A stretch of 64,000 bases of DNA, taken from Actinomyces massiliensis 4401292. GTDB lineage: Bacteria > Actinomycetota > Actinomycetes > Actinomycetales > Actinomycetaceae. The stretch covers positions 1,548,850 to 1,612,849 of the forward strand of contig NZ_JH711481.1 in NCBI RefSeq assembly GCF_000269805.1, written 5' to 3'. The notes under the pieces are model-generated. The model worked only from the letters and a program-made list of their open reading frames with translations, did no database searches and was not told the DNA's origin. A program made the translations under genes and the position numbers. The first letter of the stretch is position 1, and each line of letters starts with the position of its first letter. Shown here piece by piece: positions 3,334-44,717 of the stretch.

Positions 3334-4566
3334 ATGAGCAGCGTTGCCACGGCCCTGCGAGGGCGAGTCGTCACTCCCGTCGAGATTATCGAGGATGGCC
3401 TGGTCGTTGTCGCCGAGGGGCACATCCCATGGGTGGGGGCCGCCGCCGAGGCCGAGCGCGCCGGTTGGGGCGACCTGCTCGCCGACGCCGTGGTCGCCCC
3501 CGAGAGCGGCTACCTGCTGCCCGGCCTCGTCGACGTCCACTGCCACGGCGGCGGCGGGGAGTCCTTCCCCAATGCCGAGACCGCGGATCAGGCCATGGTC
3601 TCCATCCTGGAGCACCGCCGTCACGGCACCACCAGCCTGGTGGCCTCCTGCGTCACCGCGGCCGCCGACGTCCTGAGGGCGCGCGCGTGCGTCCTGGCCG
3701 ATCTGTGCGACGCGGGCGAGCTCGCCGGCATCCACTTCGAGGGGCCGTTCGTATCGGTGGAGCGCTGCGGCGCCCAGGACCCCACCTACATCATCGCGCC
3801 CGATGCGGCCCTGACCCGCGAGCTCATCGAGCTCGGCCGCGGGCACGTGGTCACCATGACGATCGCCCCGGAGAAGCCCGGCATCACCGGCGGCGACGGC
3901 GTCGTGGCCGCGCTGATCGACGGCGGGGCCCTGCCCTCCTTCGGGCACACCGACTCCGAAGCCGCTCCGGTGCGCGCGGGACTGGCCGACGCCTCGGCCC
4001 GACTCGCTGCGCGTGTCCGTTCCGGCCAGCCGGTGCGTTCGACCCGCTCCACCGCCACCCACCTGTTCAACGGTATGCGGCCCATGCACCACCGCACGCC
4101 CGGCCCGGTGCCGGAGTTCCTCGCCGCCGCCCGGCGGGGGGAGTGCGTCCTGGAGATGATCGGCGACGGCGTCCATCTGGCCCCGGAGATCGTCCTGGAC
4201 ATGTTCGAGACCCTTGGGCGGGAGAACGTCATCCTGGTCACCGACGCCATGGCGGCCGCGGGCATGCCCGACGGCGACTACGTGCTGGGGCCCGCCGCGG
4301 TCACGGTGGCCGATGGGGTGGCGCGCCTGACCGAGGGCGGTGCGATCGCCGGGGGCACCGCGCACCTGATCGATGTCGTGCGCACCACTTGGCGCGGTGG
4401 GGTCGATCTGGTCGATGCCGTCTACGCCGCTTCCTGTCAGGGGGCCGAGGTCCTCGGCGACGACTCGATCGGGGCCCTGGAGCCCGGCAGGTGGGCGGAC
4501 CTGGTGGTTACCGATGCCGATCTCGCGCCCGTGCGCGTCCTGCGTCGTGGCGAGGTCGTCGTCTGA
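3334..4566 (+). CDS. nagA: N-acetylglucosamine-6-phosphate deacetylase
   Basis: This amidohydrolase converts GlcNAc-6-phosphate to glucosamine-6-phosphate and acetate in amino-sugar use and cell-wall recycling. The 410 residues are full length for the family. Metal and substrate motifs are visible: DVHCHGG (His69, His71), HFEGPF with the metal-ligand Glu, GHTDSEA, THLFNGMRPMHHRTPG, EMIGDGVHLAPE and the catalytic-Asp region VTDAMAAAGM. A TACACT hexamer at 3322-3327 ends six bases before the ATG, so the mRNA is probably leaderless. No nagB or PTS gene is adjacent. Confidence 0.95.
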   Translation: MSSVATALRGRVVTPVEIIEDGLVVVAEGHIPWVGAAAEAERAGWGDLLADAVVAPESGYLLPGLVDVHCHGGGGESFPNAETADQAMVSILEHRRHGTTSLVASCVTAAADVLRARACVLADLCDAGELAGIHFEGPFVSVERCGAQDPTYIIAPDAALTRELIELGRGHVVTMTIAPEKPGITGGDGVVAALIDGGALPSFGHTDSEAAPVRAGLADASARLAARVRSGQPVRSTRSTATHLFNGMRPMHHRTPGPVPEFLAAARRGECVLEMIGDGVHLAPEIVLDMFETLGRENVILVTDAMAAAGMPDGDYVLGPAAVTVADGVARLTEGGAIAGGTAHLIDVVRTTWRGGVDLVDAVYAASCQGAEVLGDDSIGALEPGRWADLVVTDADLAPVRVLRRGEVVV

Positions 4567-4583: not shown

Positions 4584-4661
4584 CGAGATCGGTCGTAACC
4601 CGCGCCGAGATCGGTCGTAACCCGCGCCGAGATCGGTCGTATTCCGCCTCGAGATCGGTTG
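4584..4661 (-). repeat. 22-bp-period repeat array, left arm (four units)
   Basis: The core CGAGATCGGTCG occurs at 4584, 4606 and 4628, and with one mismatch at 4650, each exactly 22 bp from the last. The first units share the spacer TAACCCGCGC. The core is the reverse complement of that in the arrays to the right, so the arms face each other across about 560 bp. Confidence 0.85.
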
Positions 4662-4768
4662 CGCTGTCGCCGATCTGCTGCTCGCCGACGGTTTCGAATT
4701 GTGGCATGTGGCCTTTGTCCCCGAGTTCGTCGTGCGTGCCTCGACGTCGGGTCGGCCGGGCCGAAATC

Positions 4769-4802
4769 GAACCGATCTCGAGCCGGAACTCGACCGATCT
4801 CG
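4769..4802 (+). repeat. 22-bp-period repeat array, middle pair
   Basis: An exact core CGACCGATCTCG at 4791-4802 is preceded exactly 22 bp upstream (4769-4780) by a core with two mismatches. The spacer AGCCGGAACT resembles the AGCCGGAGCT spacer of the right-hand array. Confidence 0.75.
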
Positions 4803-5200
4803 GTATGGGGTGTGGATGGGTAGGCCTGGCGGGTGTGGTTGCCATCGGTGTTGCACATGGGAGACTGGGGTCTCTGCGGAGTGGGGGCTGGTTTTTGTTG
4901 GAATGACGGGCTTATCCGGCGAGCGTCGTGTGCGGCGGTCGGGCTCCCATGTGCGGTGAGGGGGGTCTGCGCATATGGGAGTGGGATTGTGGTCGTTGCT
5001 GACGGCGCTGTTCCGCATGATTCCGCGGTTTCCCCCGGCGCGGAGTGCGCGCGAGTGTGCAACATCGGCCGCCCCGGCACATGCGGGTATCAGCAGAGCC
5101 GTCCCGCGGCGGTGCAACCCGGCTCATATGCTCTCCAGTCCCGAGACCACCCCACCCGAGACACTCACAGACACCCATCCCGTTCCAGATGTACTGACGC
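4803..5200. other. Intergenic spacer between repeat arrays, no gene seen
   Basis: Several frames are open here on both strands, as expected in GC-rich DNA, but none has a recognisable domain together with a convincing start. Composition is mixed, with runs such as GGGTGTGGATGGG. I see no tRNA, rRNA or transposase. It may be part of a larger non-coding functional element defined by the flanking 22-bp repeats. Confidence 0.4.
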
Positions 5201-5366
5201 ACCACAATCTCGACGCGGAACCGGACCGATCTCGACGCGGATTACGACCGATCTCGGCACAGGTTTCGACCGATCTCGAGCCGGAGCTCGACCGATCTCG
5301 GCACGGGTTTCGACCGATCTCGAGCCGGAGCTCGACCGATCTCGGCACGGGTTTCGACCGATCTCG
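5201..5366 (+). repeat. 22-bp-period repeat array, right arm (seven clear units plus one degenerate)
   Basis: Cores CGACCGATCTCG lie at 5245, 5267, 5289, 5311, 5333 and 5355, with a one-mismatch core at 5223 and a half-matching core in phase at 5201. All steps are exactly 22 bp. Two spacer types alternate in the later units: GGCACGGGTTT-like and AGCCGGAGCT-like. The array ends about 30 bp before the 3' end of the MerR gene. Confidence 0.9.
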
Positions 5367-5400: not shown

Positions 5401-5961
5401 TCAGCTCGTCGAAGTCGGCGTCGCAGTGGCTCGCCGTGTCCGAGGGGGTGAAGCAGCGGTCCAGCGATGCATTGTGGCTTCGGACCTACCGGCAGGGCGC
5501 TGTGTCTGCCCGGCTCGCTTGAGCGGCCGGTCGTCGGGGCTCTCGGGTTGAGGCGTCCTCGTTGTTTTGCTGTTGTCGTCTCTGCTGTCCCTGCTGGTTT
5601 CACCGCCCTCGTCCCGCCCCGCGGCGATCACCGAGGAGATGGCGTCCCGTGAGGCCGCCAGGGTCTCGATCGACGCCTGGATCCGGGCCTGTTCGCGCTT
5701 GAGATCATTGACGGTCTCCTCGCAGATCGGGGCGAGGCGGCCTGCGCGCTCGGTCAGGCACGGCAGGACGGTGCGGATGGTCGCGGTGCTGAGGCCGGCG
5801 TCGAGCAGCTGTCGGATGCGGCGGGCCACCTCGACGTCCTGGCTGCTGTAGTCCCGGTAGCCGGAGGCGTTGCGCGCGGGCACGAGGAGCTTCTGCTCCT
5901 CGTAATAGCGGAGAAGTCGAGTGGGGATGCCCGTGCGGTCGGTGACTTCGGAGATGCGCAT
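5401..5961 (-). CDS. MerR family transcriptional regulator
   Basis: The protein starts MRISEVTDRTGIPTRLLRYY, the typical MerR winged-helix N-terminus, and continues with YRDYSSQDVEVARRI and a helical segment to about residue 120. The chosen ATG at 5961 (186 aa) sits at the family's usual start; an upstream in-frame ATG at 6006 would add 15 atypical residues. The last 50 or so residues are low-complexity (Ser, Arg, Thr, Pro) and unlike the family, so the 3' end may be extended by out-of-frame read-through. No cysteine pair typical of metal-sensing MerR proteins is evident. It is divergent from the MFS transporter, which it probably controls. Confidence 0.85.
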   Translation of the reverse strand: MRISEVTDRTGIPTRLLRYYEEQKLLVPARNASGYRDYSSQDVEVARRIRQLLDAGLSTATIRTVLPCLTERAGRLAPICEETVNDLKREQARIQASIETLAASRDAISSVIAAGRDEGGETSRDSRDDNSKTTRTPQPESPDDRPLKRAGQTQRPAGRSEATMHRWTAASPPRTRRATATPTSTS

Positions 5962-43856: not shown

Positions 43857-44717
43857 GTGCTAGGCGTCTCAGGTTCCGAATTCCTCGTCATCATCCTGGT
43901 GGCGGTCATCGTCATCGGGCCTCAGCGTCTGCCCGAGTACACCCGCAAGCTGACTCAGGCCGTGCGGCGGCTCAGGGTATTCCTGGACGACGCCAAGGAG
44001 CAGATCGCCGAGGAGGTCGGCCCGGAGCTCGCGGACCTCAATCTGTCCGACCTCGATCCGCGCAACTACGACCCGCGCAAGATCGTGCGCGACGCCCTGG
44101 GGGAGGACCTCGACGCCATCCGCAAGGACCTTGCCAATCCGATCCAGTCGGTCGCCAAGGATGCCAGGGACGCGGCCTCCGATGCCGTTAAGACCGAGGC
44201 CGCCTCCCGCTCGAAGAAGTCCCTGAGCCGGATGATCGACGACAGGGCCGAGCAGGCTCGCGAGGAGCGCCGGGCGCAGCCTGAGGCTGACACCGAGCCG
44301 GTCGAGTCGGTTGAGACTGCCGGGGAGGCGCAGGCTGTTGAGGCTGACGCCGAGCCGGTCGAGTCGGTTGAGGCTGCCGATGAGGCTGTTGAGGCTGACG
44401 CCGAGCCGGTCGAGCCGGATGAGGCTGTAGAGGTTGCCGGGGATGCTCAGGATGCTGAAGATGCTCAGGATGCCGAGCTTGACGTCGAGCCGGTTGAGCT
44501 GGATGAGCCCGCTGAGGCCCCGACTCCGATCCCCTCGAGCCTGGTCGATGAGATCAATGAGATCGAGGAGGCCGGGGAGGCGATCCGGCCGATCCGCCGG
44601 GTGCGGCCGGTGTCCCCGCGAGAGATCGTGCGCGCGGCCAACGCCGCCGCCCGTACACGCGCAGAGGCTGCCGAGGCGCCCGAGGTCGTGATGGCCGCCG
44701 ATCCCTCTGATTCCTAG
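43857..44717 (+). CDS. tatB: Sec-independent protein translocase subunit TatB
   Basis: The protein starts MLGVSGSEFLVIILVAVIVI, the TatB membrane helix, followed by GPQRLPEYTRKLTQAVRRLR (the conserved GP hinge and amphipathic helix). It then has a long cytoplasmic tail. The tail, residues 140-245, is built of acidic repeats (DAEPVESVEAADEAVE and variants) not found in most TatB proteins, giving 286 residues. TATACT (43845-43850) ends six bases before the GTG, so the mRNA is probably leaderless. tatA and tatC are not in the window. Confidence 0.88.
   Translation: MLGVSGSEFLVIILVAVIVIGPQRLPEYTRKLTQAVRRLRVFLDDAKEQIAEEVGPELADLNLSDLDPRNYDPRKIVRDALGEDLDAIRKDLANPIQSVAKDARDAASDAVKTEAASRSKKSLSRMIDDRAEQAREERRAQPEADTEPVESVETAGEAQAVEADAEPVESVEAADEAVEADAEPVEPDEAVEVAGDAQDAEDAQDAELDVEPVELDEPAEAPTPIPSSLVDEINEIEEAGEAIRPIRRVRPVSPREIVRAANAAARTRAEAAEAPEVVMAADPSDS
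44287..44430 (+). repeat. In-frame repeats in tatB encoding acidic tail
   Basis: A unit like GCTGACGCCGAGCCGGTCGA followed by GTCGGTTGAGGCTGCC occurs about three times with small changes. Repeat number may vary between strains without breaking the frame. Confidence 0.55.

Follow-up and report, generated by a model that had tools for sequence, protein, structure and literature searches.

What maintains three opposed blocks of short, strictly spaced repeats in the gap between two Actinomyces genes, and what might such blocks do for the cell that carries them? In the stretch of 64,000 nucleotides from Actinomyces massiliensis 4401292 analyzed here (the window), nagA (3334-4566, + strand; Pfam amidohydrolase) and a MerR-type regulator on the - strand, whose stop lies at 5401, are convergent and are separated by a gap of 834 bp. 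Three arrays of 22-bp units of the form CGAGATCGGT-N12 are found in this gap. Array 1 (4584-4661) begins 17 nt past the nagA stop and has four units that read on the + strand. Array 2 (4769-4802) has two units in the opposite orientation, on the - strand, and Array 3 (5201-5366), also on the - strand, comprises seven units and one degenerate unit at its inner end and finishes 34 nt short of the MerR stop. Matched with the 12-mer by which the repeat was first defined, the cores of the first block are in minus orientation and start at 4584, 4606, 4628, and 4650, with one mismatch in the core at 4650, and the block runs opposite to blocks 2 and 3. Plus-orientation cores start at 4769 and 4791, the former with two mismatches to the 12-mer and with its inner 10-mer, ACCGATCTCG, exact. 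A further seven plus cores, of which the first has one mismatch, occupy 5223-5366, and the degenerate unit lies at about 5201. The step within each block is exactly 22 bp, and Tandem Repeats Finder assigned a period of 22 to blocks one and three. An earlier note, made from the letters of the window, had described 13 cores and a degenerate one at an exact 22-bp step in three opposed blocks, and all were recovered at the positions that it gave. Allowing at most one mismatch, the 12-mer has 12 matches in the window (10 exact and 2 with one mismatch), all inside the nagA-MerR region. At up to two mismatches it has 26, against a shuffle mean of 21.9, and 22 of 100 shuffles reach 26. Since matches at this looser setting are no commoner than in shuffled sequence, the signal consists of the exact copies and their phase. 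Elsewhere in the window, a tandem repeat at 44282-44427 (period about 51 bp; score 209) is possibly a coding repeat.

The arrays are dispersed over the genome. A total of 545 matches (285 + 260) to the paired pattern ACCGATCTCG-N9..13-ACCGATCTCG were found in the 3.37-Mb genome of A. massiliensis, against 0 for a reversed-pattern control, and the same pattern occurs 234, 276, and 106 times in the genomes of A. gerencseriae (G009), A. israelii (G013), and A. ruminicola (G027), respectively. When the 83 arrays located in 864 kb of the A. massiliensis genome are scaled by the share of pairs in that portion (217 of 545), an estimated 200 or so arrays are obtained. The search of the genome and its relatives thus places copies at many intergenic sites and not at a single local one, the two outcomes that the earlier note had set against each other, and, given this copy number, the accessory origin or partition-like site that had been suggested for the locus was rejected. 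Across the genus, the paired ACCGATCTCG pattern matches 13 of 49 genomes. A wider pattern (CGARAYCGGKCG twice, with a gap of 4-18) matches 12 of the 49 and, over the whole family, the same 12 of 213 genomes, confined to 1 of 36 genera. The two patterns combined match 17 of the 49 genus genomes, including two (G012 and G039) with one match each that may be due to chance, and among the database matches listed for the array pattern all are from Actinomyces.

The arrays occur in species dialects. The first dialect, CGAGATCGGTC with YTCCG linkers, is that of A. massiliensis, A. israelii, and A. gerencseriae; the second, CGAGACCGGTCG with A-rich linkers such as AAAATAGGAG or AAAACGCCAT, is found in three genomes (G006, G008, and G016); the third, CGAGACCGGGCG with AACAGCACSG, is found in one (G042); and a further group (G010, G027, G041, and others) mixes 22- and 23-bp steps. 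Core and period are kept across the dialects and the linkers differ, with 131 of the 133 pairs listed for other species at 22 bp. The 23-bp steps have a linker of their own at loci of G010, G027, and G041 (L002, L008, and L013), and the species with such steps, when pooled (20 arrays), have a conserved CGATATGGC tail after the last core. A hairpin that follows nagA (CAGGTCGGGGCGAAC) in genomes that we take to form a naeslundii-type species group was considered as a further dialect and rejected, as it has at most eight matches per genome and the exact matches are mainly the two arms of that single hairpin.

Within the arrays, the phase is fixed and the core is kept copy by copy. All 238 distances of at most 70 bp between consecutive exact cores in 864 kb of the A. 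massiliensis genome are multiples of 22 (217 of 22, 19 of 44, and 2 of 66 bp), as are 56 of 58 in 800 kb of A. israelii, where they equal 22 or 44. Mid-array cores, defined as those midway between exact cores 44 bp apart, are exact in 136 of 155 cases. The 19 that are not include 13 with a G to A change at position 4, which is an allowed dialect letter, and 12 of these have no other change. Linkers, in contrast, vary: 103 of 217 are distinct, with at least 127 substitutions and zero length changes between them, and at seven linker positions the minor fraction ranges from 0.36 to 0.71. The initial claim that spacers are less conserved than cores applies to most of the linker but not to its TCCG, which is nearly fixed in the clade of A. 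massiliensis (CCG being positions 7-9). Mutual information within linkers is mostly between adjacent positions. The core, CGAGATCGGT, is directional and non-palindromic. Ahead of the first core, each of the five sets examined has a C/T-rich leader (CCCCYTTCGC in A. israelii). Between positions -10 and -6, pyrimidines make up 85% of the letters in A. israelii and 73% of those in A. massiliensis, compared with 46-62% farther upstream. In the 864 kb of A. massiliensis, 81 of 83 arrays have an exact first unit and 72 of 83 an exact last unit, the corresponding values in A. israelii being 43 and 39 of 50. Leader-side units are therefore almost always exact and distal units less often, as if arrays grew or were repaired from the leader side, a tendency that is weaker in A. 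israelii.

Conservation of the core in each copy, together with the lack of any change in linker length, indicates selection, on host or element, on core and phase. At 10.5 bp per helical turn, 22 bp amounts to two turns plus about 34 degrees, so that the sites would lie on nearly one face of the helix. The phased, putatively protein-binding array that the earlier note had envisaged is thus strengthened by cores kept in each copy, varied linkers, and 238 steps free of length change. Taken with the absence of a strand preference (see below), these features are most simply read as a row of protein along double-stranded DNA. Our preferred explanation, held tentatively and at a little under even confidence as a whole, is that the arrays are tandem sites for an Actinomyces-specific dsDNA-binding protein at the ends of transcription units, where it would act as a roadblock or insulator. 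That the arrays bind a protein is the probable part of this explanation, and a boundary function is a plausible but less than even prospect. The putative protein, specific to part of Actinomyces, would read the non-palindromic core CGAGAYCGGK and would need at least two sites 22 (or 23) bp apart, the bound copies sitting on nearly the same face and touching, presumably cooperatively. A row of such protein after genes or between convergent genes could form an orientation-independent roadblock or insulator that halts run-on transcription into the neighboring gene and separates supercoiling domains.

A boundary is suggested by the position of the arrays after genes and between converging genes. 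Of 222 arrays in six species, 11 at stretch edges were dropped; of the 211 that could be placed, 120 have a stop codon within 60 nt, 15 are near a start only, and 76 are farther from both. Gap classes are approximate, as genes were called with a codon-usage caller to which blast homology was later added. On these classes, arrays per kb in convergent, tandem, and divergent gaps number 0.91, 0.41, and 0.21 in A. massiliensis and 0.86, 0.38, and 0.27 in A. israelii. Convergent gaps are the densest in five of the six species, tandem gaps being the densest in A. gerencseriae, and for the four species other than A. massiliensis and A. israelii these are density ratios only, as the regions were chosen for their arrays. 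Few arrays fall inside strong gene calls (3 of 83 in A. massiliensis and 4 of 50 in A. israelii). Two stricter rules of placement were considered and abandoned. Absence from divergent gaps, suggested by a first sample with 0 arrays in 50 such gaps, gave way to 7 in 87, or 9 in 88 with cleaner calls. A sense-strand rule after stop codons, which held for 40 of the 51 non-coding arrays in the first sample whose upstream gene was known, weakened to sense:antisense ratios of 45:15 in A. massiliensis and 20:14 in A. israelii in a larger one (27:14 and 16:14 with homologue-supported frames). Near stops in all six species the ratio is 95:46, a count that still includes frames inside the repeats themselves, and in tandem gaps no strand preference is seen (60 sense versus 53 antisense); since the bias is gone there, no strict strand rule is claimed. 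Avoidance of promoters alone could give equal placement.

The positions themselves change rapidly. Among 196 reciprocal-best gene pairs between A. massiliensis and A. israelii, a sense array follows the stop in both species in 3, in A. massiliensis only in 5, in A. israelii only in 6, and in neither in 182. Sharing at orthologous 3' ends is above chance (Fisher p 0.003), yet only 3 of 14 sites are shared, and turnover this fast implies that no particular gene needs an array. The 3' end of nagA is one of the three shared sites: among the 30 nagA loci read, those of A. massiliensis and A. israelii carry an array, and four more (L142, L153, L144, and L127) carry core-like repeats of other dialects.

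Such turnover is also expected under the main rival to the preferred explanation, according to which the arrays are the ends of a non-autonomous mobile element. Two opposed arrays, each with a C/T-rich leader at its outer edge, would then serve as long terminal inverted repeats in which the 22-bp units are transposase-binding sites; a solo array would be a single end, and the core would be conserved by selection on elements able to move. This reading is possible, though on balance unlikely, and the locus itself offers it some encouragement. The nagA-MerR gap is a composite dispersed repeat with partial copies at 11 other places, at 71-82% identity, in a 464-kb sample; its fullest order is an array, a gene fragment of about 105 bp, a short array, an inner element of about 420 bp, and an array. 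The gene fragment (4669-4764, + strand), which by itself has no Pfam match, is present in 7 of 12 aligned copies, and their consensus peptide agrees in 26 of 29 residues with the extreme C-terminus encoded by a full-length LacI-family gene of 336 aa at another locus (L223, 2011-3018, - strand; Pfam LacI E 5e-15, Peripla_BP_3 E 2.9e-36) that adjoins a copy of the inner element. The region had been called gene-free, and there is indeed no credible gene in its 834 bp, but it does contain this copied LacI C-terminal fragment. As the fragment matches the end of a LacI gene and is joined to an array, a segment starting inside the end of such a gene has been copied around the genome. Copies of the fragment with flanking arrays were seen at L107, L108, L116, and L117, with L223 as the possible source. 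By these alignments, array-flanked segments have captured a gene end, the LacI C-terminus, at several loci. The inner element (4804-5200, + strand), with its TTGCACATGGGAG / CTCCCATGTGC repeats and TCCGCATGATTCCGCGG core, belongs to a second repeat family of the genus, in which species-specific inverted repeats of the TTGCACATGGGAG type surround the TCCGCATGATTCCGCGG core (loci L185-L244). It is matched in 20 of the 49 genus genomes (at most 2 mismatches in 20 bases), nine of them with no 22-bp array match. This second family looks like a non-autonomous mobile element, and the arrays may help to spread whatever sits between them.

Beyond the dispersal of such array-flanked segments, many near neighbors are oriented as element ends would be, although many elements are solo (see below): of 39 cases of neighbors no more than 900 bp apart, 31 are facing and 1 is back to back. 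The C/T-rich leader stands ahead of the first core in five of five sets. The transposons Tn7 and Mu likewise have ends with several 22-bp transposase sites facing inward. The arrays differ from these ends, however, in several respects that also count against mobility. Target duplication would leave direct repeats around facing pairs, but at 23 such pairs repeats of 4-9 bp are no commoner than in 300 shuffles of the pairs. The Y1 transposase (RAYT, PF01797), the sole transposase family searched, has matches in 0 of the 49 genus genomes and in 5 of 14 controls. Solo elements account for about half or more of the total (48 of 93 and 41 of 67), and in A. massiliensis solo arrays are as intact as paired ones (76 of 79 versus 111 of 116 interior units), with no more decay of their cores; the A. 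israelii counts (15 of 17 solo and 9 of 9 paired interior cores intact) are too few to compare. Moreover, linker diversity is high for recent copies, and neither of two dialect patterns was found in viral contigs.

Alternatively, the array could be transcribed and act in the 3' end of the mRNA as a terminator or stability element, a reading that would fit the position at 3' ends but that we consider improbable. Inverted pairs separated by 6-7 nt could fold into hairpins of roughly 10 bp, and one such pair, with a T-rich linker behind it, lies downstream of nagA in both G008 and G016. Over 45 arrays of at least three units, however, there is no excess RNA fold (mean z 0.12 in sense and 1.06 in antisense, against -0.08 for random windows), which is unlike an intrinsic terminator, with its G+C-rich hairpin followed by a T run. 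The only Rfam match, MIR6459 (E 0.35), reaches 20.8 bits against a gathering score of 100. Given also the lack of strand preference in tandem gaps, the proposal of a structured non-coding RNA was rejected, and the arrays are better understood as acting at the level of DNA, not RNA; binding to single-stranded RNA would not be expected to demand 22 nt with no length change. Strong hairpins outside the array were found at 5 of 61 gene ends with a sense array and at 120 of 450 array-less ends (p 0.0013). This deficit shrinks with matched windows, in which 13% and 18% of array-less ends have such hairpins; the counts before matching were 3 of 42 versus 71 of 303 in A. massiliensis (rank p 0.019) and 3 of 20 versus 77 of 277 in A. 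israelii (rank p 0.11). Orthologues that lack the array have a strong hairpin within 120 nt in 2 of 11 cases, a third having a long inverted repeat farther on, so that there is no clear exchange of arrays for terminators. The hairpin data thus give modest support for termination. Separately, a long inverted repeat with a CGGTGGCACCG centre was observed after one A. massiliensis gene and a like centre after another (A|L254|5 and A|L122|5), and such CGGTGGCACCG-centred repeats are possibly a third terminator-like repeat family.

It is similarly improbable that the arrays are neutral debris of slippage and gene conversion that is tolerated away from promoters. Their rarity next to start codons and the mostly unconserved positions would be in keeping with such an origin, but a core kept in each copy beside free linkers, with no length change, needs selection on element or host. 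The earlier note had reasoned that hundreds of scattered copies at unconserved positions would make this a neutral family and that loss of the 22-bp phase in close relatives would argue against a binding array; there are indeed hundreds of cores at mostly unconserved positions, but the phase is kept in the relatives. Least probable is a DNA uptake or recombination signal: hundreds of copies, species dialects of a 10-12-mer, and 25 isolated cores among 120 in A. israelii recall uptake sequences, but in these single sites are the rule and many lie within genes, whereas the arrays are mostly multi-unit and seldom in genes, isolated cores are rare in A. massiliensis (9 of 329), and phased tandem arrays are not expected of such a signal.

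Returning to the preferred explanation, a row of protein at transcription-unit ends, parallels in other systems are partial. Plasmid iterons are phased, non-palindromic direct repeats of about 22 bp, as are the arrays; the arrays, however, occupy about 200 loci, and the one in the window has no adjacent replication gene, its neighbors being nagA and MerR. At eukaryotic Pol I terminators, Sal boxes occur in tandem. These terminators are described as combining a roadblock protein with T-rich sequence (PMC12366685). The arrays resemble them in placing putative protein sites just past transcription units and in having a pyrimidine-rich tract ahead of the first of these sites, but they are bacterial and genome-wide, their tract is C- and not T-rich, and they follow no strand rule in tandem gaps. 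Dispersed extragenic repeats are already known in bacteria, and REPs have similar placement: REP/BIME sequences are described as short intergenic repeats in many copies, mainly downstream of genes or between convergent or co-directional genes and often in opposed pairs (PMC3733652). The Actinomyces arrays share the intergenic position downstream of genes and the hundreds of copies. Their unit, however, is a non-palindromic direct repeat in fixed 22-bp phase, with no GTAG/CGTC-tagged palindrome, and fold z is about 0 over the 45 arrays; as no RAYT was found in the 49 genus genomes, a REP/RAYT system was rejected. In being phased, non-palindromic, and dialect-forming with no RAYT, the array is different from known repeats, and the titles and abstract openings of the open-access literature searched hold no description of it.

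The broader proposition, that this lineage uses phased arrays of protein sites as genome-wide transcription-unit boundaries with species dialects, a protein-roadblock way of terminating or insulating that would resemble eukaryotic Pol I terminators and be unlike hairpin or Rho termination, is one that we regard as doubtful for now. If the arrays prove to be the ends of a mobile element, they would represent a repeat family that lacks a RAYT and maintains arrays of sites instead of palindromes. If a protein coats the arrays, then part of Actinomyces would possess a boundary or nucleoid system of tandem phased sites that spans the chromosome, and related species would have cognate dialects of it. 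Such a system would offer ready material for studying the insulation of transcription units in high-G+C bacteria, as well as the co-evolution of a protein with hundreds of its sites.
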